From positions 1 to 13,070 of the forward strand of contig JALPMN010000503.1 of the NCBI GenBank assembly GCA_024243835.1: a DNA stretch of 13,070 nucleotides, written 5' to 3'. Shown piece by piece: positions 2-13,070 of the stretch. The DNA is from Enteropsectra breve (taxonomy: Eukaryota; Microsporidia). Made by a program: the position numbers and the translations under genes. The notes under the pieces were generated by a model. The model was given only the letters and a program-made list of their open reading frames with translations, had not been told where the DNA came from and ran no database searches. The first letter of the stretch is position 1. The number at the start of each line of letters is the position of its first letter.

Positions 2-1537
2 CATGATATTTATAAGATGATAGATAACGAAATAGCAGAGCAAAAGGAGCATGCACTTATCTTAAAAGAGGATCTTGATCTGTTTATTGAGCAAACGGAA
101 GTTAAATTTGGTGAAATAGTAAAAAAACATATGACAGAATATTGCTCTTTATGTGCAAGAATTGACGATTATAATGAGATTATAAAGAGCTCTATGAATC
201 CGGCTGTAAAAGCAATTGAACTGAATATTAGAAAACAAAGAAATGTGCTTGAAGACATAAATAATAAGATTATAAAAACAAAAATAGAGAAACTTGAAAG
301 TATAAATAATGAGAAATCAATATTAATAAAATTTTTAGTGAATATGCTCACATGCTGTGAATCTACAACAGCGTGTAAGTATATTGATGCTTTCAAAAAT
401 AGCGTATATAAGGCTATAAATGATCTTGAAGCAATGTCTGATGAGATAAAAACAGTATCGGAAAAACTAAAGATATTCAATGAAGACATTTACACAACAC
501 TATTTGAGCTGGAAAATGAAACAGAATCAATGCAAAATAGCAATGAATTTAATAGGATATTTGAGGAAGCTATGAATAAAGTGAAGCAAGCAGTAGATAA
601 GTATAAGGAAACTGAAATGCGTTTTAAAAAAGTTGAGGATTTTGGTATAAATACTTTTATAAACCTTAGAGCCACTATTATTCCCGAAAGCGATTTCTAC
701 AAGAATGACTTGAGTAGAATTATTAAAAGCCTCAAAAATACGAAAGATGAATATCTCAAGTTATATGATGAGGTTATGAAGATAAAAATCATTCGGTTTT
801 ATATCGTAGATTTTCAATCTGATGCAAGCCGGAGTTTGAAATTGTACAAAGCCGGGAAGATGTGATGTGCTGAGGCAGAAGAAATTTTATTTTACACAGA
901 GGAAGCTAGTCGATACCTGGATAATTTATACGAAAAAATAAGAATCATAGCAAATGAAGCAAAAATGTATGAATCGATTAAAGATATGAAAGTGGAAAAT
1001 CACAAACAGGATAAATCGACAAAGATATCAATGCAAAGGGCGATAGAAGATAAAAATAACATGACCACTAGAGAAGTAAAGGCACCGGAGTTACAGCAAG
1101 ATCTCTATGATCATGATTGCCGTGCTATGAAAGCGCGTCTTCTTTATCGTTTCATTATACGTGAATATAAGTTTGAAAGGCGGGAAGAAGCTGCTTTTAG
1201 AGTCTTAGAAAATAAGTCTGCAAGGCTGTATAACGAGGCTAGATTATATAGAGATCTAATTGGAAAAATAAAAAAGCCATATCAGGAAATGAAAGTAAAA
1301 CTTGAGGGATCAAATCATCATATTGAAATTTTATCAGCATTGAGATGCGAATTAATGAATATCTATAATAATGGGAATGATATTGAAAATAACTTTGATA
1401 AAATTTTAAAGCAGTATAAGAAGGTAACGAATGATCTTTTGAATATAATCGATGAGTTTACAAAATGTCGTGAGGATACGAATGAGGGGATCGATGTGCT
1501 AGATAAGGAGATAAACAACAAACTTTGTCAGGCTTAA
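2..1537 (+). pseudogene. Gene 1: helical secreted-family member, 5' partial, interrupted by in-frame TGA
   Basis: The reading frame is open from the first bases of the window, so the true start and signal peptide lie upstream. It runs to TGA at 863-865, then continues in the same frame without another stop to TAA at 1535-1537, which makes it one gene with a single nonsense codon rather than two genes. The first ATG in the window is at 17 and the first ATG after the TGA is at 965, but the roughly 33 codons between TGA and that ATG also read as family-like sequence (AEAEEILFYTEEASRYL). The product is Lys/Glu-rich and helical throughout. A first domain (nt ~60-520) resembles domain 1 of gene 4. 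A second (nt ~540-960) carries the motif IIPESDFY, matching ILPESERAAY in gene 5. A third (nt ~1110-1530) resembles the last domain of gene 2. There is no C-terminal membrane segment, as in the A-type genes 2 and 4. It could be a recent pseudogene, a sequencing error or a readthrough gene. Function unknown. Confidence 0.7.
863..865 (+). other. In-frame TGA splitting gene 1
   Basis: Frame +2 is open from 2 to 862 and again from 866 to 1534, with this TGA as the only break. The base context is GAAGATGTGATGTGCTG, which contains a short ATGTG direct duplication. An open stretch of more than 220 codons after the stop would be unlikely by chance in AT-rich DNA, so the downstream part was coding until recently or still is. 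Confidence 0.85.
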
Positions 1538-1548
1538 TAGCCTGACAA
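1525..1548 (+). repeat. Perfect hairpin spanning the gene 1 stop codon
   Basis: The ten-base arms TTGTCAGGCT (1525-1534) and AGCCTGACAA (1539-1548) flank a TAAT loop that contains the TAA stop codon. RNA would gain one more G-U pair at the base. No T-tract follows, so it does not look like a bacterial intrinsic terminator. It may affect the mRNA 3' end or be chance. Confidence 0.7.
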
Positions 1549-1944
1549 GCTACAATAACACCTCACACGGTTTAACACTCGTAGCAAGAGAAATATTCAT
1601 TTTCAAAAATGATTTAGGGAGTTTGTGTTCAGACAGAATTCTAGAATAGCTACATTTAGGATAGAACTGCTCTCATTATTTGAGTATATGGTGAACCATC
1701 TAACATTCATGTTTTAATTCAAGATATGCTCATAATTTATTTTTGAATAAGGGACAGGAGATGTGTGTAGGGATGTTATGCGGGTATGAGGTTTTGTTTG
1801 TTCCTTGATGATAAGTGAACATCATTAAAAACGCGTTAGCACTTTAACATCAGATATTTTAGCAGAATCAATTAAATAAATTAAAATAACAGTAGTAAGA
1901 TAAGAAACTATTAGTGGCATGCAACAGGCCTGCAGCTAGTAAAG

Positions 1945-1962
1945 AATATAAAGTTTTATATT
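1945..1962. promoter_or_regulatory. Palindromic AT element upstream of gene 2
   Basis: AATATAAAGTTTTATATT is a palindrome except for its central GT. It lies 226 bp before the ATG of gene 2. Its core recurs at 5644-5659, 231 bp before the ATG of gene 4, while much of the surrounding flank has drifted. A role in transcription or DNA structure is inference. Confidence 0.4.
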
Positions 1963-2172
1963 TTTTCATTCGTATTTAAAATGCAACTTTACCAGCTCTA
2001 TGTTTGATTTTGGAACGTCTAAACCTACAGAAATCTTCCAAGTTTCTAAGATTTATGTGCTGAAGCTCGAACACCGCCTGACTAAGTATTTAACATAGTC
2101 GTTTTAAAAATACAATTGATTTCATCCTAACATGTCGAATGTTGCCTTCTCTTCACATTAAAAATTTTATGT

Positions 2173-2185
2173 AAAAATTTTGCCC
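2173..2185 (+). promoter_or_regulatory. AAATTT/CCC-like start-proximal signal, gene 2
   Basis: AAAAATTTTGCCC ends three bases before the ATG of gene 2. Close matches precede genes 4 and 5 and a weaker one precedes gene 3. Microsporidia are known for AAATTT-like and CCC-like signals just before start codons, and this box fits both parts. The copies are paralogous, so shared ancestry also contributes. Confidence 0.5.
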
Positions 2186-2188
2186 ATT

Positions 2189-3832
2189 ATGTTGGGTTCA
2201 ATTGATTCATTATTGATCCTGATTGCATGCAGCAGATGTACATCAGCTGATTGGCAAGAAGAGGATAACCCGCAAGAAATAGCTGCAGGGTTAACTTCAG
2301 AACTAGCATATGCACAAGACACAGGCAGAAACCTAAGTGATACGCGTTCTTATGTTAGCATCAATCAAGTCAATGATAGTGTAAATCCTGCTGTAGGTAT
2401 ACAGGCAGAAGCATCTGGAAGTTGCTCTCAAATTTCAGGCAATAGCATTTCATCGTCAGTTATCAGTAGAATAAATAACTTTAATGTAATCTCAGTGGAT
2501 TATATGGCGTCAGTCACATCAAATATAACTGAAGACTTACGTTTTAATGCAGAGGAAAAATATGATAACGAAATTAGGCATTGCACAGATTCTGAGAGTT
2601 TAAGAAATGAGGCGACAGCGGAACTGTCTGCAGATGTGCTGAAGGTGAGAAATGATTTTTATTGGTTTTTTAAGGAAATGTTCATTGATTATGTTGATAA
2701 TAAAAGTAGCAGTTTTAGAACTTGTATCAATCTTGCTAGTAGAATTAAGGATCTTATAAAGGATATTCTTAAAAGAACAAATAGTGATATTGGCGTTTTT
2801 TCAAAGGAAGTAAAAGAAGTCAATGAAATTAGAGAACAATTCAAGAGCACACTAATTGAGCGTAAGATTAAAGAGAGGATCCTAGTAAGTCTAAAGAGCT
2901 TATCAACGAAGTTCATACAAAAATTATTGGACCAGGGTGCAGATAGAGACTATAAACAAAAATGGATTAATGAAGCAGAAAGTATTAAAAATATGGCAAG
3001 AAAGGCAAAGAAAGAATATGATGAACAAGCTAATAAGTATGAAGATCTTTATTATGATATAATAGATATATTTGAAGGCATTAAAGAATCCTTAGCCGAT
3101 GCGAAGCAAAATGAGGGTGATGAAGAGACTGAAAAAAGAGATGAAACTAGCATGGCTCATGATATTGACGCAGAAAGTAGTCTAGAAGTTTATAATGAGC
3201 TAATGAAAATACTGGAAGCAGATTATGTTTTTGAAAAAACTGAACATAGCTTTGAAGAAGATGCACTACTTTTGACCGAAGAAGAGGTCAAAGAAATTAA
3301 AAAAGAAAGTAATTATTGGAGAGACATCCGTTACTTCGAAGACAAAATTAACATTAACATAGAAAGATATACGCGCTGCTGTAATGCTTTCAATATGCCT
3401 CTATTTAATGTGAGAAGATCGTGTGCAATAGAAAGACGTTTAGTTATGTTGCCTGAAGAGAGCGAGGACTATAGAAATAGACTCCATTTACTTGCTGAAA
3501 GAATCTATTCGATGAAACTAAAGCTTGAAGAAGAAAAAGCTTTTGTTGAGAGCATATTAGAAGATGTTCTGCAATTAAATATCATGTTTGAGACAGATAG
3601 TTGTACTAGAGAACAGCAAGAAATTAAACGACAAGAATGCGAGGATAAGTTAAAAAGGTTGAATGAGTTGTTTAAACTGGCTAAGAAAATAGATCGTGAT
3701 ATTGATTGTGATAAAACTAGTATTCAATATGAAATAATTTCTAAAGCGAATGCAAGACAAGATGAGGACAGAATGAAACAAAAAGAAATGCAAACTGGAT
3801 CCACAGAAGTCGAGAACCAGCCATCCAATTAA
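2189..3832 (+). CDS. Gene 2: secreted helical (coiled-coil-like) family protein, type A
   Basis: I read 547 residues from the ATG at 2189. The frame also extends nine bases upstream to a TTG, but the ATG is conserved in gene 4 and follows the start-proximal box. A signal peptide (residues 1-19, MLGSIDSLLILIACSRCTS) is followed by a Ser/Asn-rich region to ~140, helical domain 1 (~145-303), an acidic linker (~305-330) and helical domain 2 (~340-515) containing MLPEESEDY at 420-428. There is no C-terminal membrane segment, so the mature protein should be soluble and secreted. It is collinear with gene 4 almost without gaps: the first ~104 residues are about 74% identical by hand count, while the helical body is far more diverged. 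AATAAA lies ten bases after the stop. No enzymatic motif was recognised and the function is unknown. It forms a duplicated pair with gene 3. Confidence 0.85.
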   Translation: MLGSIDSLLILIACSRCTSADWQEEDNPQEIAAGLTSELAYAQDTGRNLSDTRSYVSINQVNDSVNPAVGIQAEASGSCSQISGNSISSSVISRINNFNVISVDYMASVTSNITEDLRFNAEEKYDNEIRHCTDSESLRNEATAELSADVLKVRNDFYWFFKEMFIDYVDNKSSSFRTCINLASRIKDLIKDILKRTNSDIGVFSKEVKEVNEIREQFKSTLIERKIKERILVSLKSLSTKFIQKLLDQGADRDYKQKWINEAESIKNMARKAKKEYDEQANKYEDLYYDIIDIFEGIKESLADAKQNEGDEETEKRDETSMAHDIDAESSLEVYNELMKILEADYVFEKTEHSFEEDALLLTEEEVKEIKKESNYWRDIRYFEDKININIERYTRCCNAFNMPLFNVRRSCAIERRLVMLPEESEDYRNRLHLLAERIYSMKLKLEEEKAFVESILEDVLQLNIMFETDSCTREQQEIKRQECEDKLKRLNELFKLAKKIDRDIDCDKTSIQYEIISKANARQDEDRMKQKEMQTGSTEVENQPSN

Positions 3833-3841
3833 CATTCTTGA

Positions 3842-3847
3842 AATAAA
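3842..3847 (+). promoter_or_regulatory. Polyadenylation signal, gene 2
   Basis: AATAAA begins ten bases after the gene 2 stop and is followed by ACTTCG. Gene 4 has AATAAA followed by GCTTCG at nearly the same place. Such closeness to the stop implies a very short 3' UTR. Confidence 0.5.
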
Positions 3848-4261
3848 ACTTCGATTTTTAAAATGGCTTATGGAGCAGCGCTCACTTATATGGGACGGCT
3901 AGTAGTGTGGAGAAGCAATCCCTTATTACTAGCTGCCCTTATTAGTTTATCTTTGATAAATCTATTTTTTATAACATGTTAAATTATTTGGTCAAGTTTA
4001 TTATTCTATAAGTGCTGATGAAAAGAATATTCTTTAAAACATCTGCTCCACAGTTTATCCAAAAGATTACTTAGGTTGTTAGCGAGAAAATATGCAAGGG
4101 AAAAAATATAATTTTTTGGAGTCTTTAAAGAAAATGAAATTTAACTTTTTAATCTTAAAATATATTAAGAAAGTGAAAGCTGTAGTTTTGACTTATAGCT
4201 CAAGGTATTCTAATGTAAAAGACATCTCATTTACTATCTAAATGATGATATCTTTGTTATA

Positions 4262-4340
4262 TAAAAATTTGATGATTTTTTCTCCTTAAAAGAATTCAAT
4301 AATGTTTTCTCCATGTAAAAATTTGATGAAGTTTTTGTCC
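4262..4340 (+). repeat. Three imperfect ~24-27 bp repeats leading into the gene 3 start
   Basis: Copies lie at 4262-4285, 4286-4312 and 4316-4340. Copies 1 and 3 share TAAAAATTTGATGA, and all three end in TTTT[CG]TCC. The last runs directly into the ATG at 4341. Copy 2 is followed by ATG-TAA, a minimal upstream start-stop. The ATG at 4302, inside copy 2, is in frame with gene 3 and would add 13 residues. Confidence 0.55.
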
Positions 4341-5120
4341 ATGAAAATTATGAACTTTGAACTTGTAACAGTGCTAATCACATACAGTTTATGTACAGCG
4401 GCAGAAAGAGAAAATTCAAAAAGAGCACAGGATTTACACAATAAACACGAAGATAGTCATGAAAATCAAAGCAATGGCGATTTGCGAGGATTTCAATCTG
4501 AATTGTCTCAGAAAAATAAAGCAGAAGCACATAAAATGGAAGAAGAACTTAATTTGTATGTTAATGATTTAGAAAAGCAATTTGAAAGCATAAGAGACAA
4601 GTATTTTAGTGAATGCAGCGATTTATTTGATACAATTCGCCATCATGATAGCCTTATTAAAAGAGCAGTAAAAGTTTTAGATACTGAAGATTTCAATAAA
4701 ATAAATACAAGAGAACGTTGTGATGAATATGAAAAATTTGTAAATGAATTAAAAAGAACACTGGAGATGCTTTCAAAGTTATATGGTTCGAAAACAAAGC
4801 TTATACATAATTTATGGAGTTTGTGTGATGATGATTTTACTAGAAACAGTATCATTTTGGTTGATAATTTTAAAAACAGTGCAAATACAGATTTCACCAT
4901 TTTTAAAGAATTATGCTCCAAGGGCAAAGGGCTGTTAAATGAACTGTGGGAGAGAAATGATAGCATTTTAGAGAAAATACAGCCTGCAGAGGTTAACAAA
5001 AAATTTGAACCGATTCGAAAGAGTATTGAAGATTATTGGAAATCTCTAGATATAGTTGATTCCTCAAGTAATAATGATAGTCAACCTAAAAATATAAATA
5101 ATGAAAATGCTGATGAGTAG
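4341..5120 (+). CDS. Gene 3: short secreted helical family protein, type B with lost anchor
   Basis: I read 259 residues from the ATG at 4341, chosen because it matches the gene 5 start (TCC-ATG-AAA) and gives a clean signal peptide; an in-frame ATG at 4302 would add 13 residues. The signal ends LITYSLCTA at ~20. A charged region is followed by helical domain 1 (~60-212), collinear with gene 5: EEELN, FNK, DEY and ILVDNFK (172-178) fall at the same positions. The second domain and repeat stalk of gene 5 are absent. An Asn/Ser-rich tail (~238-259) ends NADE, then TAG. The bases after the stop still encode a recognisable membrane anchor (5121-5225), so the protein was probably membrane-anchored in the past. 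As it stands it would be secreted and soluble. Function unknown; it is either a decaying copy or a functional truncated form. Confidence 0.75.
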   Translation: MKIMNFELVTVLITYSLCTAAERENSKRAQDLHNKHEDSHENQSNGDLRGFQSELSQKNKAEAHKMEEELNLYVNDLEKQFESIRDKYFSECSDLFDTIRHHDSLIKRAVKVLDTEDFNKINTRERCDEYEKFVNELKRTLEMLSKLYGSKTKLIHNLWSLCDDDFTRNSIILVDNFKNSANTDFTIFKELCSKGKGLLNELWERNDSILEKIQPAEVNKKFEPIRKSIEDYWKSLDIVDSSSNNDSQPKNINNENADE

Positions 5121-5225
5121 AGTTCATTTAGGAATTAATCGATTTGGTTTGTTGTTGGGATAGTAGCTGTGACAGGAGTAGCATTTATATATTTCCTTGC
5201 AGGTAAAAAGCTATCACACTCTTGA
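5121..5225 (+). pseudogene. Remnant C-terminal membrane anchor of gene 3, behind two stop codons
   Basis: Read in frame after the TAG at 5118-5120, the DNA gives SSFRN, a second stop (TAA 5136-5138), then SIWFVVGIVAVTGV followed by AFIYFLAGKKLSHS and TGA at 5223-5225. Gene 5 at the same place reads DESSSSRNLWILLG and later IYVFTGKK. The first stop corresponds to a TCG-to-TAG change relative to gene 5. The hydrophobic segment and the following GKK are preserved with conservative changes only. Confidence 0.8.
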
Positions 5226-5643
5226 ATTTAAGAAACCATCAAACAAATTAAAATATTCGATAATTTCCTTCTAAAATTCCTGAGACAATTATAAGCAATA
5301 ATATTTTTTTAGAGTTTAAAAATCTGTTCAGGGAAAGGAAACAGTAGGAAATATTATCTTTAACGCAGATTTGCAAACCGAAGAGGGTTTTTTACAAGAT
5401 TGTATAAATTTAAAATGTAGTACCGTTACTTTCAAGATGATCTCCTTTGTAGTGCCGTCCCCAAATACTCGCAAAAACCGTTTAGATAAAATCAAGTATT
5501 GATTAGACTTTAAGCCATTGTATATTTATCATGGAACCCTTTTAGAGATGTTTCATTACTCAAAGCGACCTAAGTTTGCAGAAATAACAGTTTTTAAGAT
5601 AAATGCGAGATTTGGCCTGCTACTTGCTATGCACAAGTTGAGG

Positions 5644-5659
5644 ATATAAAGTTTTATAT
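5644..5659. promoter_or_regulatory. Palindromic AT element upstream of gene 4
   Basis: ATATAAAGTTTTATAT is the counterpart of the element at 1945-1962. It lies 231 bp before the gene 4 ATG and is nearly symmetric around a central GT. Its function is unknown. Confidence 0.4.
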
Positions 5660-5874
5660 TCATGTCATTTGTATATTGAAATATACACTTGAAAAGCTCT
5701 CTATTTGAATTTAAATATTTCAACTCAAGGCTGCTGTTAGTAAACTAAAATTTAGTGCATTATAAGCCATGAAAACCGTCGGGTCAAGTATTTATCACAG
5801 TAGTTTAAAAATGAAGTTGATTTCTACCTAGAATATCGAATGCTACTTTCTCTTCGAATTTATTTATTTGATGT

Positions 5875-5887
5875 AAAAATTTTACCC
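5875..5887 (+). promoter_or_regulatory. AAATTT/CCC-like start-proximal signal, gene 4
   Basis: AAAAATTTTACCC ends three bases before the ATG at 5891, with the same spacing as in gene 2 and one base different. Its presence supports 5891, not 5840, as the start. Confidence 0.5.
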
Positions 5888-5890
5888 ATT

Positions 5891-7546
5891 ATGTTAGGTT
5901 CAATTGATTCATTACTGATCCTGATCGCATGCAGCAGATGTACATCAGTTGACAGGCAAGAGGAGGATATCCCGCAAGAAATAGCTGCTGGGTCTTTTTC
6001 AGAACTAGCGGATGCTCTGGACAGAGTCACAACCTTAAGTGATACTCATTCTAATGGTAACATAAACCAAGTCACTGATAGTGTAAATCCTGCTGTAGAT
6101 ATACAGGCAGAAGCATCTGTTAGTTGCTCCCGAACTTCAGACAATAGCATTTCATCGACAGTTATCAGTAGAAGAGATAACCTTAATGAAAGCTCAGTGG
6201 ATGCTGTGATATCAGATGTAGTAAATAGGAATGAGGGCTTAGATTTAAGTATTTCAGAGAATCATGAGGGCGAAATAAACCATTCTTTATATTCTGACTT
6301 TATAAAAAACAAAATAGCCGAACAAGATGTAGCAAAAATGCTTAAAGTAAAGAATGGACTTTCTGCATATATCAAGAAGCTATTAATTAGATACATTTGC
6401 AACAGAGATGAGTGTACCAGCGAGCTTTTGGTTATATCGAATAAAATTAGCGAATATAAAATCCTTATCAATGATATTTTAAAGAGTAACAATATTCAAA
6501 TTGCAGCTGTATCATGTGAAGTAGAAGAGATCAAAGAAATCAGGGAACAGATAAAAATCATGCAAATTGCGTACAAAGCAAAAGAAGATAAACTACAGCG
6601 TATAAAACAATTATCAAATAAGCTTGTACAAGATTTAATGGCTAATGATAAGGATAGTGATTTTAAACAGAAACTTACGAATGATGTAGATAGCTTTAAA
6701 ACTATGGCTAAAGAGGCTGGTAAAGAATATTACAACATATCCACAAAGTATTTAGAACTTTATAATCAGTTAGCAGATAATTTTGAAAGTATTAGTAATA
6801 AGCTGTCCGCAGCGCTGCAAAATGAAAAATCAAAAGAAAAGGAGACTTATGGTATGGTCAATGGAAGCCAAGAAAGTGCAGGAAATGATAAGCAGGGTTG
6901 TTCTGATCTAATAGAAATATTGGAAGCTGATTATTTTGCTGAAAACAACGCGTATAATTCAGCAGAAGGTTCATCATTATTAACAGAAAGCGAGTTAAAA
7001 GAACTTGAAGAAAATTCCAGACTTTATCAATTAATCAGCAAAAATAGAAAATGGATTCTTCATGCTTTAGAAGAATACGGCCTCTTTTCTGATGAGTATA
7101 AGAAACTGTCAGAGGAAATGTTTTGGTGTGAAGCTATGCAAGAGTTGATGAAATTGCCCGTAGAAAATGAATTGTTCAAAAAAGAACTAGACTCAATCGA
7201 GGAAACATACAATGCAATGAGACTTAAATTTAATAAGTCTAAAGCTATAGCTGATATTTTATCAGAATGTTTTAGAGAACTAGTGAGAAATTTTAACCAA
7301 GATAGATGTACTAACGAGCAGATTGAAGAAAACCTACAGAATTGCATGAATGAAGCTAATAACATTATATATTTAATACATGAATCTCAGTGTTGCATAT
7401 ATGAAACAAAACGCAAGGCTAAGTATATTCAAACAGAAATCAAGCGCGAACTTATTTTACTAGAATATGGAATAAGCTTGAAAAATGAAGAACAACGAGC
7501 TGTTTCGACAGAAGAAGCGGCTCAGTCGTCTAAATTTAATCCATAA
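5891..7546 (+). CDS. Gene 4: secreted helical (coiled-coil-like) family protein, type A
   Basis: I read 551 residues from the ATG at 5891. An in-frame ATG at 5840 would add 17 residues and bury the signal peptide. The first 19 residues are identical to gene 2 (MLGSIDSLLILIACSRCTS). A Ser/Asn-rich region runs to ~140, helical domain 1 covers ~145-312 with VEEIKEIREQIK matching VKEVNEIREQFK in gene 2, a polar linker follows, and helical domain 2 covers ~340-525 with KLPVENELF at 421-429. No C-terminal membrane segment is present. It is collinear with gene 2 almost residue for residue, but beyond residue ~105 it is strongly diverged, in contrast to the conserved N-terminus. Pairs with gene 5 as the second copy of a two-gene unit. 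Function unknown; predicted to be secreted. Confidence 0.85.
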   Translation: MLGSIDSLLILIACSRCTSVDRQEEDIPQEIAAGSFSELADALDRVTTLSDTHSNGNINQVTDSVNPAVDIQAEASVSCSRTSDNSISSTVISRRDNLNESSVDAVISDVVNRNEGLDLSISENHEGEINHSLYSDFIKNKIAEQDVAKMLKVKNGLSAYIKKLLIRYICNRDECTSELLVISNKISEYKILINDILKSNNIQIAAVSCEVEEIKEIREQIKIMQIAYKAKEDKLQRIKQLSNKLVQDLMANDKDSDFKQKLTNDVDSFKTMAKEAGKEYYNISTKYLELYNQLADNFESISNKLSAALQNEKSKEKETYGMVNGSQESAGNDKQGCSDLIEILEADYFAENNAYNSAEGSSLLTESELKELEENSRLYQLISKNRKWILHALEEYGLFSDEYKKLSEEMFWCEAMQELMKLPVENELFKKELDSIEETYNAMRLKFNKSKAIADILSECFRELVRNFNQDRCTNEQIEENLQNCMNEANNIIYLIHESQCCIYETKRKAKYIQTEIKRELILLEYGISLKNEEQRAVSTEEAAQSSKFNP

Positions 7547-7547
7547 A

Positions 7548-7553
7548 AATAAA
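7548..7553 (+). promoter_or_regulatory. Polyadenylation signal, gene 4
   Basis: AATAAA starts two bases after the stop of gene 4 and is followed by GCTTCG, mirroring the arrangement after gene 2. Confidence 0.5.
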
Positions 7554-8020
7554 GCTTCGGTTATTTTAAGTCTTTTTTGATCATTACTCACTCGGAAGGG
7601 CCAGTTTTAGTGTGGCAAAGTGATTTTTTTACAAGAGAGCTTAATAAGTCTGCAACTAATGCTTTTAATTTTATATTTTGCTTATTATATTTAAAATAGA
7701 TTATAACCCGTCCCTTCATCTTTTTACTACTAATCGTCCATGAATGCACAAAACTACCGTACTTTGAAATGGTAAAAGCTTCAGAATAATAGAGTATAGT
7801 GAATATTTTAGACTTTGAGTTCTAATCGAGTTACTCGCACAGTACTAATTTTGATAAATGACAGTCTGCAGGAAATATTTAGCCCATTTTCTGATTGATT
7901 CTTTAATATGTTGAAAAACAAGTATAAGAAGTGGCTTAAGTTTGGTTCAAGCTGTACTCATATGAATGTTATACCATTAACTAATAGGAGGACGATACCC
8001 CTTTTCAAGAAATTTTGAAG

Positions 8021-8033
8021 AAAAATTTTATCC
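8021..8033 (+). promoter_or_regulatory. AAATTT/CC-like start-proximal signal, gene 5
   Basis: AAAAATTTTATCC abuts the ATG of gene 5. Gene 3 has AAGTTTTTGTCC (4329-4340) in the same place. Both end in TCC directly before the ATG, against CCCATT-ATG in genes 2 and 4. Confidence 0.5.
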
Positions 8034-9905
8034 ATGAAATTTGTGAAGATTGAAATTGTAACGGCATTGATAGCATGCAGCAGCTGCACTGCTGCAGAAG
8101 AGCAAAATTCAGACAAAACGAAAGATTTGGATGCTATGTCTGACAACAATAAAATCCCATATAGTAGTGTTATTGAAAAGTTAAAAAAAGACATGAAATT
8201 TGCAAATGAACCAATAGTAAAAAAAGTAGAAGAAGAGCTTAATTTGTTTGTTCTGAACATACAAGAGCAATACACTAAGTTAGAGGATCAGTATCGCATA
8301 TCACTTTGGGATTTATTTACGAAAATTTCAAGTCATAAAGCTAATGCTGCAGCTGCTGCAAATGCTCTAACTAATGAAGTTTTCAATAAATTAATAAGTA
8401 AAGAACAAAGTGATGAATATAAAAGAATAATGGGAGAAATCAAAAGACCAGAGGATAGATTCAATATATTAAAGGATTTGAAATTAGAAGCATTCTGTAA
8501 ATTAGTGGCAATGAGTGCTAAAGATGACTTTGTTGAAAAATATAAAATTCTGGTAGATAATTTCAAAAAAGATATAAGCACAAAATTCAAAATTTTTGAA
8601 GATATTTGCATTAAGTCAGGGGAAATTATACGCGAACTAGAGGCCCTTAATGTAAAAATTTTCGAGGAAACAGCTTATGCTAAACATGCAAAAAAGCTTG
8701 CGATGAGCGGTGATGACCGTATAGAAGAAATAACTGTGGTGAAATTGGAAAAAGAACCTACAGTAGAAAATTACGAAGATGCAGGCAATTTGAAGGAATT
8801 TTTAGAGAATGCAGAAAGATATATTACACAAGTTATCGATAAATATCGTGATGTTAGTAAAATCATCGATGATTCTTATTTTAAGAGGCTTGATAAATGC
8901 AATAAACTAAAAGTTGAAATTGCTATACTCCCAGAAAGTGAGAGAGCTGCCTATGAAACAGAGGTAAAGGAAATTAAAGAAAGCATAGAAGTTAAGAAAC
9001 ATGAATACTATGAACTTGATACTGAAGTCACACATATGAAATATGATAGAAAAGATATAGCAAAATACTTAAAACAGGATTTAACTGAAAAAACAAGTTG
9101 TAAAGTGCTCTTCCAGAATGTTGAAAAGAGTATTGAGAGAGCCAAAAAAATTCTAACTATTGTAACTGAAGTTGAAAATTTACTTGCTGGCACAGACTCT
9201 GAGCTTGAAAATATGCTAAATGCTATAAATGAAAGAATAGATGACATAAGGAAAAGGGAAATTGAACAGGCACAAAGAAATGCGCCTATTTTAAATTTTT
9301 TCCAATGTGATTCGAGTTATCGGGGTGATAAACAAAGCCATAGAAATATAAATACACAGCATCACGTAGATATAGGATACAGTGTCCCCACTGGAAGAGA
9401 AGATGATTTGCAAAAGAATGCAGCCGGTCAGCCTGTAAAACAAAACCACGAAAATATAAAGATTCAACATAAAGTAGATTTAGAAAACAGCGTTATTAAT
9501 AGAAAACAGGATAGTTCTCATAATGATCCAACAGCCAAGATACCAAAAGAAAGTAGCAGAAATATAGAACTACAACCACAAGTAGATATTGATCTCAATA
9601 ATCGAGCTATGAAAGGGGATGATTCAACTGGTAAGACTGCAGAAGAAAATATCGAAGAAATACAAATACCAGGAAATGAAGCATTTGGACGCAATAATCG
9701 AATTGAAAAAGAAGACGACTCTCATGTTGATTTAACAGACAAGACTCCAAAAGGAAACATTGAAAATGACAATTCCCCAAGAGCTGATGAGTCGAGCTCT
9801 TCTAGGAACTTATGGATTTTACTCGGAGTTGGAGTAGTAATTGTTATAGGAGCGATAATTATATATGTCTTCACGGGTAAGAAGGCCTCAGTTTCTTCAA
9901 TATAA
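8034..9905 (+). CDS. Gene 5: membrane-anchored helical family protein with repeat stalk, type B
   Basis: I read 623 residues from the ATG at 8034. The signal peptide is residues 1-20 (LIACSSCTA), with likely cleavage after CTA. Helical domain 1 spans ~55-212 and is collinear with gene 3. Helical domain 2 (~250-412) contains FLENAERYI, DKYRD and ILPESERAAY. A polar stalk at 431-572 is made of four degenerate repeats, then a Ser-rich spacer, one transmembrane helix (593-613) and a short basic tail starting TGKK. The layout is that of a type I membrane protein: helical head and stalk outside the cytoplasm, ten-residue tail inside. This is the only complete anchored member in the window. AATAAA lies seven bases after the stop. 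Function unknown; surface or secretory-pathway membrane location is inferred from the signal and anchor. Confidence 0.88.
   Translation: MKFVKIEIVTALIACSSCTAAEEQNSDKTKDLDAMSDNNKIPYSSVIEKLKKDMKFANEPIVKKVEEELNLFVLNIQEQYTKLEDQYRISLWDLFTKISSHKANAAAAANALTNEVFNKLISKEQSDEYKRIMGEIKRPEDRFNILKDLKLEAFCKLVAMSAKDDFVEKYKILVDNFKKDISTKFKIFEDICIKSGEIIRELEALNVKIFEETAYAKHAKKLAMSGDDRIEEITVVKLEKEPTVENYEDAGNLKEFLENAERYITQVIDKYRDVSKIIDDSYFKRLDKCNKLKVEIAILPESERAAYETEVKEIKESIEVKKHEYYELDTEVTHMKYDRKDIAKYLKQDLTEKTSCKVLFQNVEKSIERAKKILTIVTEVENLLAGTDSELENMLNAINERIDDIRKREIEQAQRNAPILNFFQCDSSYRGDKQSHRNINTQHHVDIGYSVPTGREDDLQKNAAGQPVKQNHENIKIQHKVDLENSVINRKQDSSHNDPTAKIPKESSRNIELQPQVDIDLNNRAMKGDDSTGKTAEENIEEIQIPGNEAFGRNNRIEKEDDSHVDLTDKTPKGNIENDNSPRADESSSSRNLWILLGVGVVIVIGAIIIYVFTGKKASVSSI
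9324..9749 (+). repeat. Tandem 32-37 residue repeats in the gene 5 stalk
   Basis: Four degenerate units lie at 9324-9434, 9435-9545, 9546-9641 and 9642-9749, with a partial fifth after that. Shared positions include [RE]-N-I near the start, Q-x-x-V-D-[IL] in units 1 to 3, an R/K-x-x-D-D-[SL] block and T-x-K-[TI]-P at the end. The units are hydrophilic and fit an extended, probably disordered stalk that holds the helical head away from the membrane. Confidence 0.65.
9810..9872 (+). other. Transmembrane segment of gene 5
   Basis: Residues 593-613 (LWILLGVGVVIVIGAI, then IIYVF) form a 21-residue hydrophobic run. It is preceded by SSSSRN and followed by TGKK, consistent with a single C-terminal anchor and a basic cytoplasmic tail. 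Confidence 0.9.
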
Positions 9906-9911
9906 AAGGCC

Positions 9912-9917
9912 AATAAA
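9912..9917 (+). promoter_or_regulatory. Polyadenylation signal, gene 5
   Basis: AATAAA begins seven bases after the TAA stop of gene 5, as close as in genes 2 and 4. Confidence 0.45.
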
Positions 9918-9958
9918 AAAATGGGCGTATTATTTTTGTGTATAAATTTCGACTTTAT

Positions 9959-10165
9959 TTACGAAAATATAAAATCTTTGATAAGGAATTATGAAAATAT
10001 AAAATCTAATAAAATAATTACAAAACTATAAAATTTCAAACAAGGTTTATAAAAATATAAAATTAAATAAGCAAGTTTTATGAAAATATAAAAAATGTAG
10101 TTAAAATTAAGAAAATATAAACGAACAAAGAAATACTTATAAAAATATAAAGAAACTAGGATTAA
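9959..10165 (+). repeat. Left array: seven ~30-bp AT-rich units (core TTATGAAAATATAAA)
   Basis: Units start at 9959, 9989, 10018, 10047, 10078, 10107 and 10137, a regular 29-31 bp period. Each begins with a close match to TTATGAAAATATAAA, followed by about 15 bases that differ from unit to unit. A degenerate further core, TTATGAAAATAGAG, lies at 10238-10251. The reverse-complement array is at 10505-10856, so the two can fold together. Confidence 0.8.
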
Positions 10166-10504
10166 TTTAATTTTGTGTAAATCCGTTTCAAAAAACTACC
10201 TATTTTTTCTACAAATAATAACGTTGCTCCAAAAACTTATGAAAATAGAGTTAAAAATAAGGATATTGTTATATGAATATAACATTGTGAATCAAAGAAG
10301 AGGAAGACCATGGACTAGTCAAAGAATTAGAACTCGGGGTGAAATAACAGGAAGATGTCTGAAAACTTGTAGTTTTATGCGCGCAGCAAAGCCATAATAA
10401 GAGGGCATGTGCAGGAAATAATGCAAGTTCTAATGCTAATGATTAAATAATTAAATTTTTCTTTATTTGTAAATTAAAATTTTGCAAGTTTTGTAGCAAA
10501 ATAG
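10166..10504. other. Spacer between inverted repeat arrays
   Basis: About 340 bases with fewer core repeats and somewhat higher GC around 10300-10420. A 74-codon frame (10173-10397) exists only if a TTG start is allowed. From its first ATG (10239) it would be 52 residues, ending in a basic stretch with QRRGRPWTSQRIRTRG. I do not consider it a supported gene. It may be a remnant of something carried between the arrays. Confidence 0.4.
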
Positions 10505-10856
10505 TTATATTTTCTTAATTTATTTTCGTAAACTTTATATTTTCTAAATTTATTTGCTTACAGTTTATATTTTCTTAAATCTTTCAAAAACTTTTATATT
10601 TGTATAAAGTTCGATTTTATATGCTTTTTATAAATTTTATATTATTCTAAATGTCTCATTTTATTATTATACTAACGTAAATTTTTATTTTTATCTAAAC
10701 ATTTTCCTAACTAATCTTTACTTTTATATATTTTTATAATGTTTGTTTGAAAATGTTATATTTTCGTAATTAATTGCAAGATTTTATATTTTCATAATTC
10801 TTTACCAAAAGTAGTATATTTTTATAAATATTTTTAAAATTCTTACATTTTTATAA
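10505..10856 (-). repeat. Right array: about twelve inverted ~30-bp AT-rich units
   Basis: The core TTATATTTTCATAA and close variants starts at 10505, 10535, 10565 and 10594, becomes irregular and degenerate through 10617-10698, then resumes at 10724, 10756, 10784, 10814 and 10843. The core is the reverse complement of the core of the left array, and the spacing in the well-kept parts is again 28-32 bp. Long inverted arms built from short tandem units recall foldback elements, but no target duplication could be identified. Confidence 0.75.
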
Positions 10857-11046
10857 TTATTCCTAAAAAAATTTAATCATTTAAACTACTTACACTTAAA
10901 AAGCTTTTGGATAATTATAAAACCGTGTAATTTTAATTATATTTTAAGTTTATGTGCTGGAATAGGAAGCTTTAGGAATCTTATTTTCAGAAAATATTTA
11001 CAAACTGACGAGGACATTTTATAAAGCTGTAACATTTTTTTGTGTA
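10857..11046. other. AT-rich intergenic stretch before the MITE
   Basis: I see no gene or clear repeat here. Confidence 0.5.
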
Positions 11047-11070
11047 CCGGATTTTACCGAAAATAAGACC
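11047..11070 (+). repeat. Left terminal inverted repeat of the MITE
   Basis: Matches 11329-11352 in reverse complement without mismatch over 24 bases, 26 if the flanking TA is counted. It ends in GAAAATAAGACC and runs into the first poly-C tract (11069-11077). Confidence 0.85.
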
Positions 11071-11118
11071 CCCCCCCTAAAAAGCTCAAAATTGAAAAAT
11101 TTTTCACTTTCAAGGAAA

Positions 11119-11138
11119 GAAAATAAGACCCCCCCCCC
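11119..11138 (+). repeat. Internal copy of the terminal motif with second poly-C run
   Basis: GAAAATAAGACC followed by C's (ten in all) repeats the inner part of the left terminal repeat exactly 60 bp further in. A third copy of AAAATAAGACC lies at 11316-11326. Confidence 0.75.
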
Positions 11139-11315
11139 TTCACAAAAATATTATCATGATATAAGCTTTTAAAATATAACTAAAAAGCTGTAAATAGTGT
11201 TAAATGCATTAAATTTATTACATTTTATCTATTTCAGTATTTAAAAACACATTTCTTTACTTCTTCTTCCTCCCCATTCCCAATAGTAAACAAATAAAAA
11301 ATTTTTCAAGGCATA

Positions 11316-11339
11316 AAAATAAGACCATGGTCTTATTTT
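11316..11339. repeat. 24-bp perfect palindrome at the right MITE end
   Basis: A perfect palindrome centred on CCATGG at 11325-11330, with arms AAAATAAGACCA and TGGTCTTATTTT. It arises where a direct copy of the motif meets the inverted terminal copy head to head. Confidence 0.85.
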
Positions 11340-11352
11340 CGGTAAAATCCGG
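11329..11352 (-). repeat. Right terminal inverted repeat of the MITE
   Basis: Exact reverse complement of 11047-11070, ending ...AAAATCCGG and followed by TA at 11353-11354. Confidence 0.85.
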
Positions 11353-11474
11353 TAAGCGTTGTCATGCAGAATAAGGCAAATTTCATTTTATCAGCTTTCA
11401 AAGCATAATACAGGTGATTCGTCATCTTCAATATGATATTATTTAAATCCTTTTACTGGTTAACCACAAAATCA

Positions 11475-11534
11475 AGAATTAATCATAAATTTTCAGCATT
11501 AATTATAAATTTTGAGCAATAGTTATAAAATAGG
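11475..11534 (+). repeat. Three 20-bp tandem repeats upstream of gene 6
   Basis: Units at 11475-11494, 11495-11514 and 11515-11534. Units 1 and 2 share the pattern AG[AC]ATTAAT[CT]ATAAATTTT, and unit 3 is degenerate (AGCAATAGTTATAAAATAGG). They lie about 130 bp before the gene 6 ATG. The region 11355-11659 is otherwise featureless. Confidence 0.6.
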
Positions 11535-11659
11535 AAGAGTGTCCCCTATATTATTACATTTTGAAGCCTCCGCTAGTGCTTGAGTTCGTTGCGTTAATGC
11601 TACCTCCTTATTCGTTCAATTAAATATTTCAACCCCTTTTTTTCTATTCAAAAAAATAG

Positions 11660-13070
11660 ATGGCTCTGTTCATTATGAGAACAGGAGGGACATATACGCT
11701 TATTTCTTTGATCTCTTATACCAGGTGCACAGCCGAAGCAGAGAGAACAAATTCTCAAAATATTACGAATCCATTGCTTCAACAGATACCTGATAATAAA
11801 AGGGATGCTTCTCAACCAGGGGATGAAAGCAATAATAATGAACATTCATATGAATCACTGCCCCAGTTGCACACAATCGACAAATGCATCGCATTCTTAG
11901 AAGAGCAAAATCAAAAATGTGGAGATGATCTATGGAACATCCAAAAAACTCTCAAATTAAAACCTGGCCCAGCAGTGCATATTGCCGTGAAGGGATATGA
12001 TTTTGAAAGGGCTGTAAAAAGTGTCATAAAAAGCGTTTCTCATAGTGGCCCATATAACGAGAGAAAGCGCAAGTATTTTTATTTTCTGCTGAAGATTGAG
12101 AAGATTCTGATAAATGTGTTTTACAACACCTGTGATCTAATCAAGCAGGCTCAAAATGATGAAGACCTGAAATCCAAAGATGTAAGAGAGAAAATGCTAT
12201 CAATTTACATTGAGCAGCTGTCTAAGATATCCTTGCTGATGCAAGACATTGCCTTGTATACAGCAGATAAATATAGAAACTCACCAAAGTCATTTGCAGA
12301 ATATTATGCTTACTCAATAGATCCGTCAACGAATCTGTACAAGGAACTTAATGAGCTGATTGAGAATTTTTATTTTTCGTTTTTTTATGAAGCATCTTCC
12401 AACAGCAAGAAAATAGAGAATAAAGACGCACAGATGCAAGACTGGGACAAAAGCATCAAAGAGGAACTAAAAGAAAAGGTTCATGCCATGGCTATTCTGG
12501 AGCTTAGTAAGAAGGAGGATCCCAATAGTACTCCTCCTGAAAATAAAAATGGTAGGAAAGATCTGAAAAATAAAGGCTCGGGCAGAAAGAATGTAGGAAC
12601 AGGATATGCATTAGCTGAGGCAATGAGAGTACAAATAGCTGCTGAAACTGGACTGATTGATAATAACACAGAAGTAAATAAACTGCTGGAAAATGCCAAA
12701 AAGCAGCACTATAGAGCAAAATATGACTACAAGCACGGATCATATGGAGAAAATATAAATAAGCTAAAATCTTATATGGTAAGACTCTATGAAAATAATC
12801 CTGACGGTGAAGAGGCCCAGGCATATACAGCAGCAATCAAGAATATTGAAGAAATGCATAGGAAAATTAAGGCTGATTTAGAAGAAGAAGCAGTAGAAAT
12901 TGAGGGAGAAATAGATAATTTGAAAGTCGCAATGTTAAACATCTTCAGCAGGGATCCGCATAGTAATGAACTAATCATTTATGGAGAGAGATCCATCAGA
13001 GAGGCAAATGACATGCTGAAGTTGATAAAAGGCGTGAATAAAAACATGGATGATATGAGTGAAAAGATTC
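11660..13070 (+). CDS. Gene 6: secreted helical family protein, 3' partial
   Basis: The frame opens at the ATG at 11660, directly after an in-frame TAG, and stays open for 470 codons to the window end, so the C-terminus is missing. The signal peptide reads MALFIMRTGGTYTLISLI, then SYTRCTAEAE, with the same S/T-x-C-T-A ending as the other genes. Met6 is an alternative start. A charged Asn-rich region (30-70) precedes helical domain 1 (~74-205), a long linker with Pro/Gly/Lys (~285-315) and helical domain 2 (from ~335), whose LLENAKKQHYRAKYDY aligns with FLENAERYITQVIDKY of gene 5. Codon use is less AT-rich than in genes 1 to 5 (frequent CTG, some CCC and GGC). Whether a membrane anchor follows cannot be seen. 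Function unknown; a divergent member of the same family. Confidence 0.82.
   Translation, partial: MALFIMRTGGTYTLISLISYTRCTAEAERTNSQNITNPLLQQIPDNKRDASQPGDESNNNEHSYESLPQLHTIDKCIAFLEEQNQKCGDDLWNIQKTLKLKPGPAVHIAVKGYDFERAVKSVIKSVSHSGPYNERKRKYFYFLLKIEKILINVFYNTCDLIKQAQNDEDLKSKDVREKMLSIYIEQLSKISLLMQDIALYTADKYRNSPKSFAEYYAYSIDPSTNLYKELNELIENFYFSFFYEASSNSKKIENKDAQMQDWDKSIKEELKEKVHAMAILELSKKEDPNSTPPENKNGRKDLKNKGSGRKNVGTGYALAEAMRVQIAAETGLIDNNTEVNKLLENAKKQHYRAKYDYKHGSYGENINKLKSYMVRLYENNPDGEEAQAYTAAIKNIEEMHRKIKADLEEEAVEIEGEIDNLKVAMLNIFSRDPHSNELIIYGERSIREANDMLKLIKGVNKNMDDMSEKI

Follow-up and report, generated by a model that had tools for sequence, protein, structure and literature searches.

Large gene families (LGFs) of microsporidia are defined, in the accessible parts of the papers that describe them, as sets of 10 or more homologues within one species, at least 50% of which have a signal peptide or a transmembrane domain, clade restriction being typical but not required (PMC5423893, PMC10393165). 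The families with more than 100 members include EbrLGF1, and of the four other largest families that were modelled NemLGF2 alone resembles a solved protein (PMC10393165). NemLGF1 has a three-domain architecture and occurs in Nematocida and Pancytospora, and the accessible text counts Enteropsectra breve among the lineages without this family (PMC10393165). Here we analyse a gene family that fills a 13,070-base contig of E. breve (JALPMN010000503.1, hereafter C81), the whole of which is the window, and its relatives in a searched assembly of 3.96 Mb in 155 contigs. The species assignment is borne out by the RPA1 gene of contig C35, which is 100% identical to that of E. breve over the 1,011 residues compared, with Pancytospora as the next named species at 56%. 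The initial annotation of C81 had noted that lineage-restricted families with signals or anchors expand in microsporidia; as far as the accessible text goes, this wider kind of family has already been published, E. breve included (PMC10393165, PMC5423893). We favour, with reasonable but limited confidence, the view that the C81 genes belong to a lineage-specific E. breve family whose products, secreted proteins and type I membrane proteins, would be displayed or released at the contact between the parasite and the intestinal cells of its nematode host.

A tandem gene array with a common signal ending

C81 is filled by six family genes, all on the plus strand, that form a tandem array in the order g1, g2, g4, g3, g5 and g6, the names g3 and g4 having been assigned by similarity and not by position. 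The remaining open reading frames of at least 80 residues are antisense to these six genes, and a tRNA scan of C81 found none. The family reaches at least five further contigs (C17, C23, C93, C120 and C153), and at least 14 genes can be linked: six in C81, four in a second tandem array in C120, and one each in C93, C23, C153 and C17, a count that leaves out two C70 genes and a reverse-strand C23 gene discussed below. The family counts are lower bounds, because about one third of the published genome, given as about 6.0 Mb in the accessible text (PMC10393165), lies outside the searched 3.96 Mb.

The signals of genes 2 to 6 had been read as ending in ACSRCTS, ACSRCTS, TYSLCTA, ACSSCTA and SYTRCTA, and all five indeed read in this way. 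The consensus S-x-C-T-[AS] that had been proposed for them holds in four of the five, gene 6 reading T-R-C-T-A instead. A strict degenerate DNA pattern for the ending had six matches in the assembly, all in family genes (five in C81 and one in C93), and its reversed control had none. When the final codon was dropped, the looser pattern had 17 matches versus 3 for the reversed control. Eight of these are the N-termini of g2, g3, g4, g5 and g6 and of the C93, C23 and C153 family genes, and nine lie outside the family. Inspection of 12 loci (these nine, C23, C93 and C153) showed that the nine occupy frames no longer than 106 residues, away from any gene start; in the three family genes the motif begins 11 residues past the Met of a long frame. 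The corresponding distance in the five window genes is 10-11 residues (16 in g6, or 11 when counted from its second Met). It should be noted that the pattern was composed after all eight gene signals were known and that the C23, C153 and C93 genes were first located by body similarity. The test therefore lies in nothing else matching, and in these three genes bearing the motif at all. The signal ending is shared beyond chance, and a longer pattern, [LF]I[AST][CY]xxC, was found in family genes alone.

Five more relatives, found by their start context or by body similarity, have signals that read LIAHSKCSA, FVAQIKCMN, LIVNNKCAN, FSTNAKCLN and VIAYAKCAS, with a Cys at the same place preceded by Lys. 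The signal Cys is present in all 13 visible family signals. Cleavage of signal peptides follows the -3/-1 rule, by which the family Cys would probably stand at -3 and a small residue at -1 (Ala, Ser or Thr, and Asn in three signals), so that the Cys would depart with the cleaved signal. The idea that a Cys at -3 is a tag unique to the family is weakened by an M16-type gene of locus L010, one gene of locus L011 and one C70 gene, which by eye carry a Cys nearby. The M16-type gene (L010 7394-9613) adjoins the C153 family gene and combines a signal-like start with a Peptidase_M16_C match of 23.3 bits against a cut-off of 23. A second secreted-looking family was noticed at four loci of the assembly (L054, L057, L059 and L070, in contigs C18, C26, C50 and C101), with signals ending in ..EQA or ..VQA and, by eye, a Cys-rich RING-like stretch; L057 had no Pfam match at E 0.01, and L057 and L059 are 48% identical.

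The start context AAATTTTRYCCATG had 32 matches in the assembly versus 1 for its control. Its use as a family-specific promoter was rejected, since it also precedes unrelated genes (30 of the 32 matches were viewed). It is a likely start-site and promoter-like signal of E. breve, in agreement with published AAATTT-like and CCC-like signals as given in the accessible part of the report (PMC2803860). On this context and on spacing, Met 2189 and Met 5891 are preferred as the starts of g2 and g3, and likewise Met 4341 for g4.

The 5' module of genes 2 and 3

The start context, the signal and the linker make up a 5' module of about 330 bases that is common to g2 and g3. Comparison of their DNA places it at 2159-2488 for gene 2 and at 5861-6190 for gene 3, with identity dropping near codon 100 and being patchy upstream. 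Third-position differences amount to 16 of 110 in codons 1-110 and to 233 of 435 in codons 111-550 (Fisher p 2.6e-14). As third positions vary with the amino acid too, four-fold silent sites were also compared; differences were found at 5 of 33 sites in codons 1-110 versus 12 of 26 in codons 111-550 (p 0.019), a modest test made, as was the whole comparison, on one gene pair with boundaries picked on the same data. The synonymous distance (dS, NG86) was 0.33 for the signal and 0.25 for the linker, as against 1.27 for D1 and 1.49 for D2. For the whole pair the nonsynonymous distance (dN) was 0.52 versus a dS of 0.88, and for the signal part 0.02 versus 0.33; dN was below dS in all six gene pairs compared.

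Judged by sequence divergence, the module is much younger than the bodies of the two genes. The simplest reading would be that the 5' ends underwent gene conversion or were exchanged, because protein constraint alone would not reduce the silent differences in the linker. The signal cassette thus appears to recombine between paralogues, which suggests how such families may reuse an export signal as their bodies diverge. A further step, which we regard as doubtful and offer for consideration, would be to see the start context, the Ser/Thr-rich linker and a Cys-type signal, its Cys invariantly at -3, as one mobile unit for secretion at the 5' end. This cassette would recombine among paralogues and become joined to different helical bodies, and its conserved signal end would act on host-exposed proteins as a sorting tag peculiar to the lineage.

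Domains, anchors and interrupted frames

An N-terminal helical domain of one type (A) is common to g1 to g5 and ENBRE01_0341, and that of g6 is of a different type (B), common to dispersed paralogues. BLAST-level comparison of the bodies gave E-values of 3e-99 for g2 versus g3 and 4e-31 for g4 versus g5, and the C93 gene matched g4 (3e-12), g3 (8e-12), g5 (2e-8) and g1 (3e-4); no clear similarity at this level was found between the body of g6 and those of g1 to g5. Identity is 40% for g2/g3 and 25% for g5/C93, the D2 of g2/g3 alone being 25% identical in amino acids. Absence of detectable homology among the six bodies, which the initial annotation had named as an outcome that would speak against a family, did not arise in profile comparison, as the second half of g6 matched the type-A profile of the second domain (D2) with 15.7 bits against 5.6 for the best reversed control. 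The proposal of one family stands by signal and second domain, with the corrections that g4 is without the second domain and that the N-domains are of two types.

Gene 1 begins beyond the contig. Its first part (2-865) holds a type-A N-domain at about 17-526 and a D2 at about 518-862, in line with the body plan previously ascribed to it. An in-frame TGA at 863-865 terminates this part, but the same frame remains open to 1537, and the continuation (866-1537) carries a second D2-like stretch at about 1154-1525 (20.3 bits with the type-A D2 profile). Gene 2 (2189-3832) consists of a signal (2189-2245, ending LIACSRCTS), a Ser/Thr-rich linker, a type-A N-domain at about 2579-3142 and a D2 at about 3155-3769, and is without an anchor. 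The same holds for gene 3 (5891-7546), with its signal at 5891-5947 (LIACSRCTS), linker, N-domain A at about 6281-6844 and D2 at about 6842-7456. Gene 4 (4341-5120) has a signal at 4341-4400 (LITYSLCTA) and an N-domain A at about 4473-5027, lacks D2 and is terminated by an in-frame TAG (5118-5120). Gene 5 (8034-9905) combines a signal (8034-8093, LIACSSCTA), an N-domain A at about 8166-8714, a D2 at about 8769-9305 predicted as a three-helix bundle, a charged linker and a predicted C-terminal membrane anchor at about 9816-9872. Gene 6 (11660-13069), open at the contig end, has a signal at 11660-11734 (LISYTRCTA; its start may be 11675), a type-B N-domain at about 11897-12481 and a D2-like stretch at about 12653-13051. 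Between g5 and g6 lies a 310-base element (11045-11354) resembling a miniature inverted-repeat transposable element. It has two C runs, and its terminal inverted repeats match perfectly over 26 bases; in a scan of 82 loci, only four contained its exact end, all of them stretches of C81 itself. About 900 bases at 9939-10847 are very low in G+C (0.20 in 10001-11000) and contain many GAAAATATAAAAT-like units, which are inverted between the two halves of the region (124-base arms, 72%).

Elsewhere in the family, one C120 gene has three aligned D2 stretches and no N-domain, and the C23 gene carries a 205-residue segment absent from its close paralogue in C153. From these alignments, D2 is a modular and repeatable unit. 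Only hhalign connects type B with a reverse-strand C23 gene and two C70 genes (E 0.00033, reversed control 0.5). HMMER gave no support for this branch, with 3.7 and -0.9 bits for the C70 genes and 9.0 bits for the C23 gene outside the expected region (352-416). These three genes may be a third branch of the family. Gene 1 had a weak match in contig C37 (E 0.034).

The family may already be listed as one of the EbrLGFs of Wadi et al. 2023, for example EbrLGF1, which would concern prior listing and be compatible with the reading that we prefer. The species is the same, signals or anchors are enriched in the E. breve families that the paper reports (PMC10393165), and at least 14 linked genes would pass its threshold of 10. 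However, EbrLGF1 is recognised by homology to ENBRE01_2406 and by a family size above 100, and a single-sequence search of the 3.96 Mb located between 2 and 7 places each time, far fewer than 100 even with the query and any separate pieces of one gene counted among them. Moreover, the paper worked with E 1e-5, and the profile scores on which the link between types A and B depends are weaker than this. Such a listing is possible, although we lean against it.

The anchor score was the mean hydropathy of the best 19 residues past residue 45, determined for 15 sequences or pieces. Seven of these have an anchor-like segment (score of at least 2.5), namely g5 (3.04), C93 (3.14), C23 (2.76), the second piece of C153 (2.85), two C120 genes (2.51 and 2.73) and one C70 gene (3.23). 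Scores were below 1 for g2, g3, g4 and the C120 gene with three D2 stretches, and at most 1.35 for g6, C17, another C120 gene and the first piece of C153, all four of which are seen only in part. An anchor-like tail similar to the g5 anchor lies in the frame of gene 4 at 5139-5225, separated from the gene by the TAG at 5118-5120 and a TAA at 5136-5138. Its hydropathy was reached by 5 of 2000 shuffles, and the stretch 5076-5225 matches 569-622 of g5 (E 1.8e-4) with three stops within. An intron as an explanation for the stops ahead of this tail was dropped, as the frame runs unshifted across both.

The stops in genes 1 and 4 had escaped the initial annotation, and the C153 gene is interrupted by one TAA. 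These interruptions, in 3 of the 14 linked genes, would fit an array that consists mostly of decaying duplicates left by an earlier expansion, as would a hydrophobic in-frame piece past the stops of g2, the score of which was reached by 29 of 2000 shuffles (g3 has no such counterpart, 534 of 2000). Nevertheless, we consider general decay unlikely, since g2, g3, g5, C93 and C23 have kept uninterrupted frames of 529-811 codons despite the 40% and 25% identities given above, and since dN is below dS in all six pairs. The in-frame stops themselves may represent assembly error, decay or a strain difference.

Predicted models of g5 and g6 are nearly all helix, in agreement with the helical bodies previously proposed, and the D2 bundle of g5 has a pLDDT of about 75-90. 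Neither model had a significant fold match. No known domain had been recognised in the initial annotation, and none of the seven window proteins or pieces reached a curated Pfam-A cut-off; clear matches to a known cytoplasmic family, which would have spoken against a new family, did not appear. The sub-cut-off matches ATG17_like (E 0.0036, 17.3 bits versus a cut-off of 43) and PRESAN (E 0.069) were rejected. No Pfam family matched the mature part of g6 at E 0.01. Vip3A_N (E 1.6e-4) and AHH (E 0.0059), each found with one of seven members of the type-B alignment, were taken as chance matches of coiled helices because C93, C23 and two C120 genes match none at E 0.01. Likewise, the 10 matches of the type-A profile to PDB sequences at E <=1 were read as generic helix matches; they comprise three receptor fusions (5.9e-4 to 8e-4), of which one carries a de novo design according to its description, designed bundles (0.0096 and 0.016), and Mediator 11 and others (0.08-0.46). 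The same applies to the four matches of the type-B profile, the best of which is a designed peptide (E 0.35).

Alternatively, the proteins could be secreted, coiled and helical building blocks of the spore wall or polar tube; in that case they would assemble within the parasite at sporogenesis and would not act on the host directly. This is unlikely in view of the anchors predicted in several members, the tandem expansion and the rapid divergence of the bodies, as seen in the D2 of g2/g3. Spore structural proteins are generally better conserved, which we count against this explanation; the comparison with spore wall and polar tube proteins was made through the Pfam scans.

Probable location at the host interface and comparison with known families

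We return to the view of secreted and type I membrane proteins at the contact between parasite and host cell. The N-terminal signal would route the chain into the secretory pathway, where it would probably be cut after the small residue two positions past the conserved Cys, such that the mature protein would keep neither the signal nor this Cys. The mature part would form an elongated ectodomain, mostly with an N-terminal helical domain of type A or B, followed by a variable number of D2 modules, from none in g4 to three in a C120 gene, and a charged linker. Several members would end in a single membrane anchor, and those without one would be soluble. New paralogues would appear side by side; they would acquire or shed segments and anchors, and recombination could give them common 5' ends while their bodies diverge. 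In our view, the proteins would bind host or parasite-surface proteins, or make up a variable coat, acting at the interface from the side of the parasite. According to the accessible parts of the reports, tagging in infected worms identified host-exposed Nematocida proteins, among which signals or anchors, membership of families and clade restriction are enriched (PMC5423893), and E. breve resides in intestinal cells of Oscheius (PMC5179134). Enteropsectra and Pancytospora philotis infect Oscheius, and in that accessible text no tested Caenorhabditis strain was infected (PMC5179134). By analogy with the Nematocida enrichment, host exposure of the E. breve family would be likely.

Several observations weigh against this view. 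The signal of g6 is weakly hydrophobic (mean hydropathy 1.05), and signals and anchors in general were assessed by hydropathy and inspection rather than by a dedicated predictor. The link between types A and B depends on moderate D2 profile scores and is one-sided: the type-B D2 profile gave 10.3 bits for g6 and at most 4.9 for type-A members, the best reversed sequence scoring 5.0. Homology between the two types of N-domain went undetected (hhalign E 0.21, reversed control 0.15). All fold matches fall inside the helical-bundle background, and part of the array may be decaying, given the in-frame stops in three linked genes. Lastly, clade restriction is weakly tested. With about 8000 candidates scored in each case, a protein database search returned only g5 itself for the g5 query and only ENBRE01_0341 for the type-A profile; since the latter search missed true relatives (g5 and the C23 and C120 paralogues), it is insensitive and says little on other species.

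We know of no Enteropsectra effector or surface family with a demonstrated function. With its own signal motif, a modular ectodomain, and anchored as well as soluble members, the present family offers concrete host-interface candidates. In open-licence literature, no report of the C81 signal motif or domains was found by title or abstract start. Helical-bundle surface proteins of other parasites, namely the trypanosome haptoglobin-haemoglobin receptor (4e40) and ISG65 (8ovb), were matched by fold with Z-scores inside the helical-bundle background; their biology is different, and such matches imply no relationship by sequence. The match to the Plasmodium reticulocyte-binding protein PvRBP2b (5w53) likewise lies inside this background and implies no sequence kinship. 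The closest likeness is to the microsporidian LGFs (NemLGF, PanLGF and EbrLGF), which are described in the accessible text as lineage-specific and paralogous, with signals and/or C-terminal anchors, mostly no known domain and often adjacent copies (PMC5423893, PMC10393165). In the C81 family, 13 of the 14 linked genes start signal-like by hydropathy and inspection, the start of g1 being off the contig. Unlike the published LGFs, however, this family has a repeatable D2 module, and members with either type of N-domain are marked by a short motif at the place where the signal would be cleaved.

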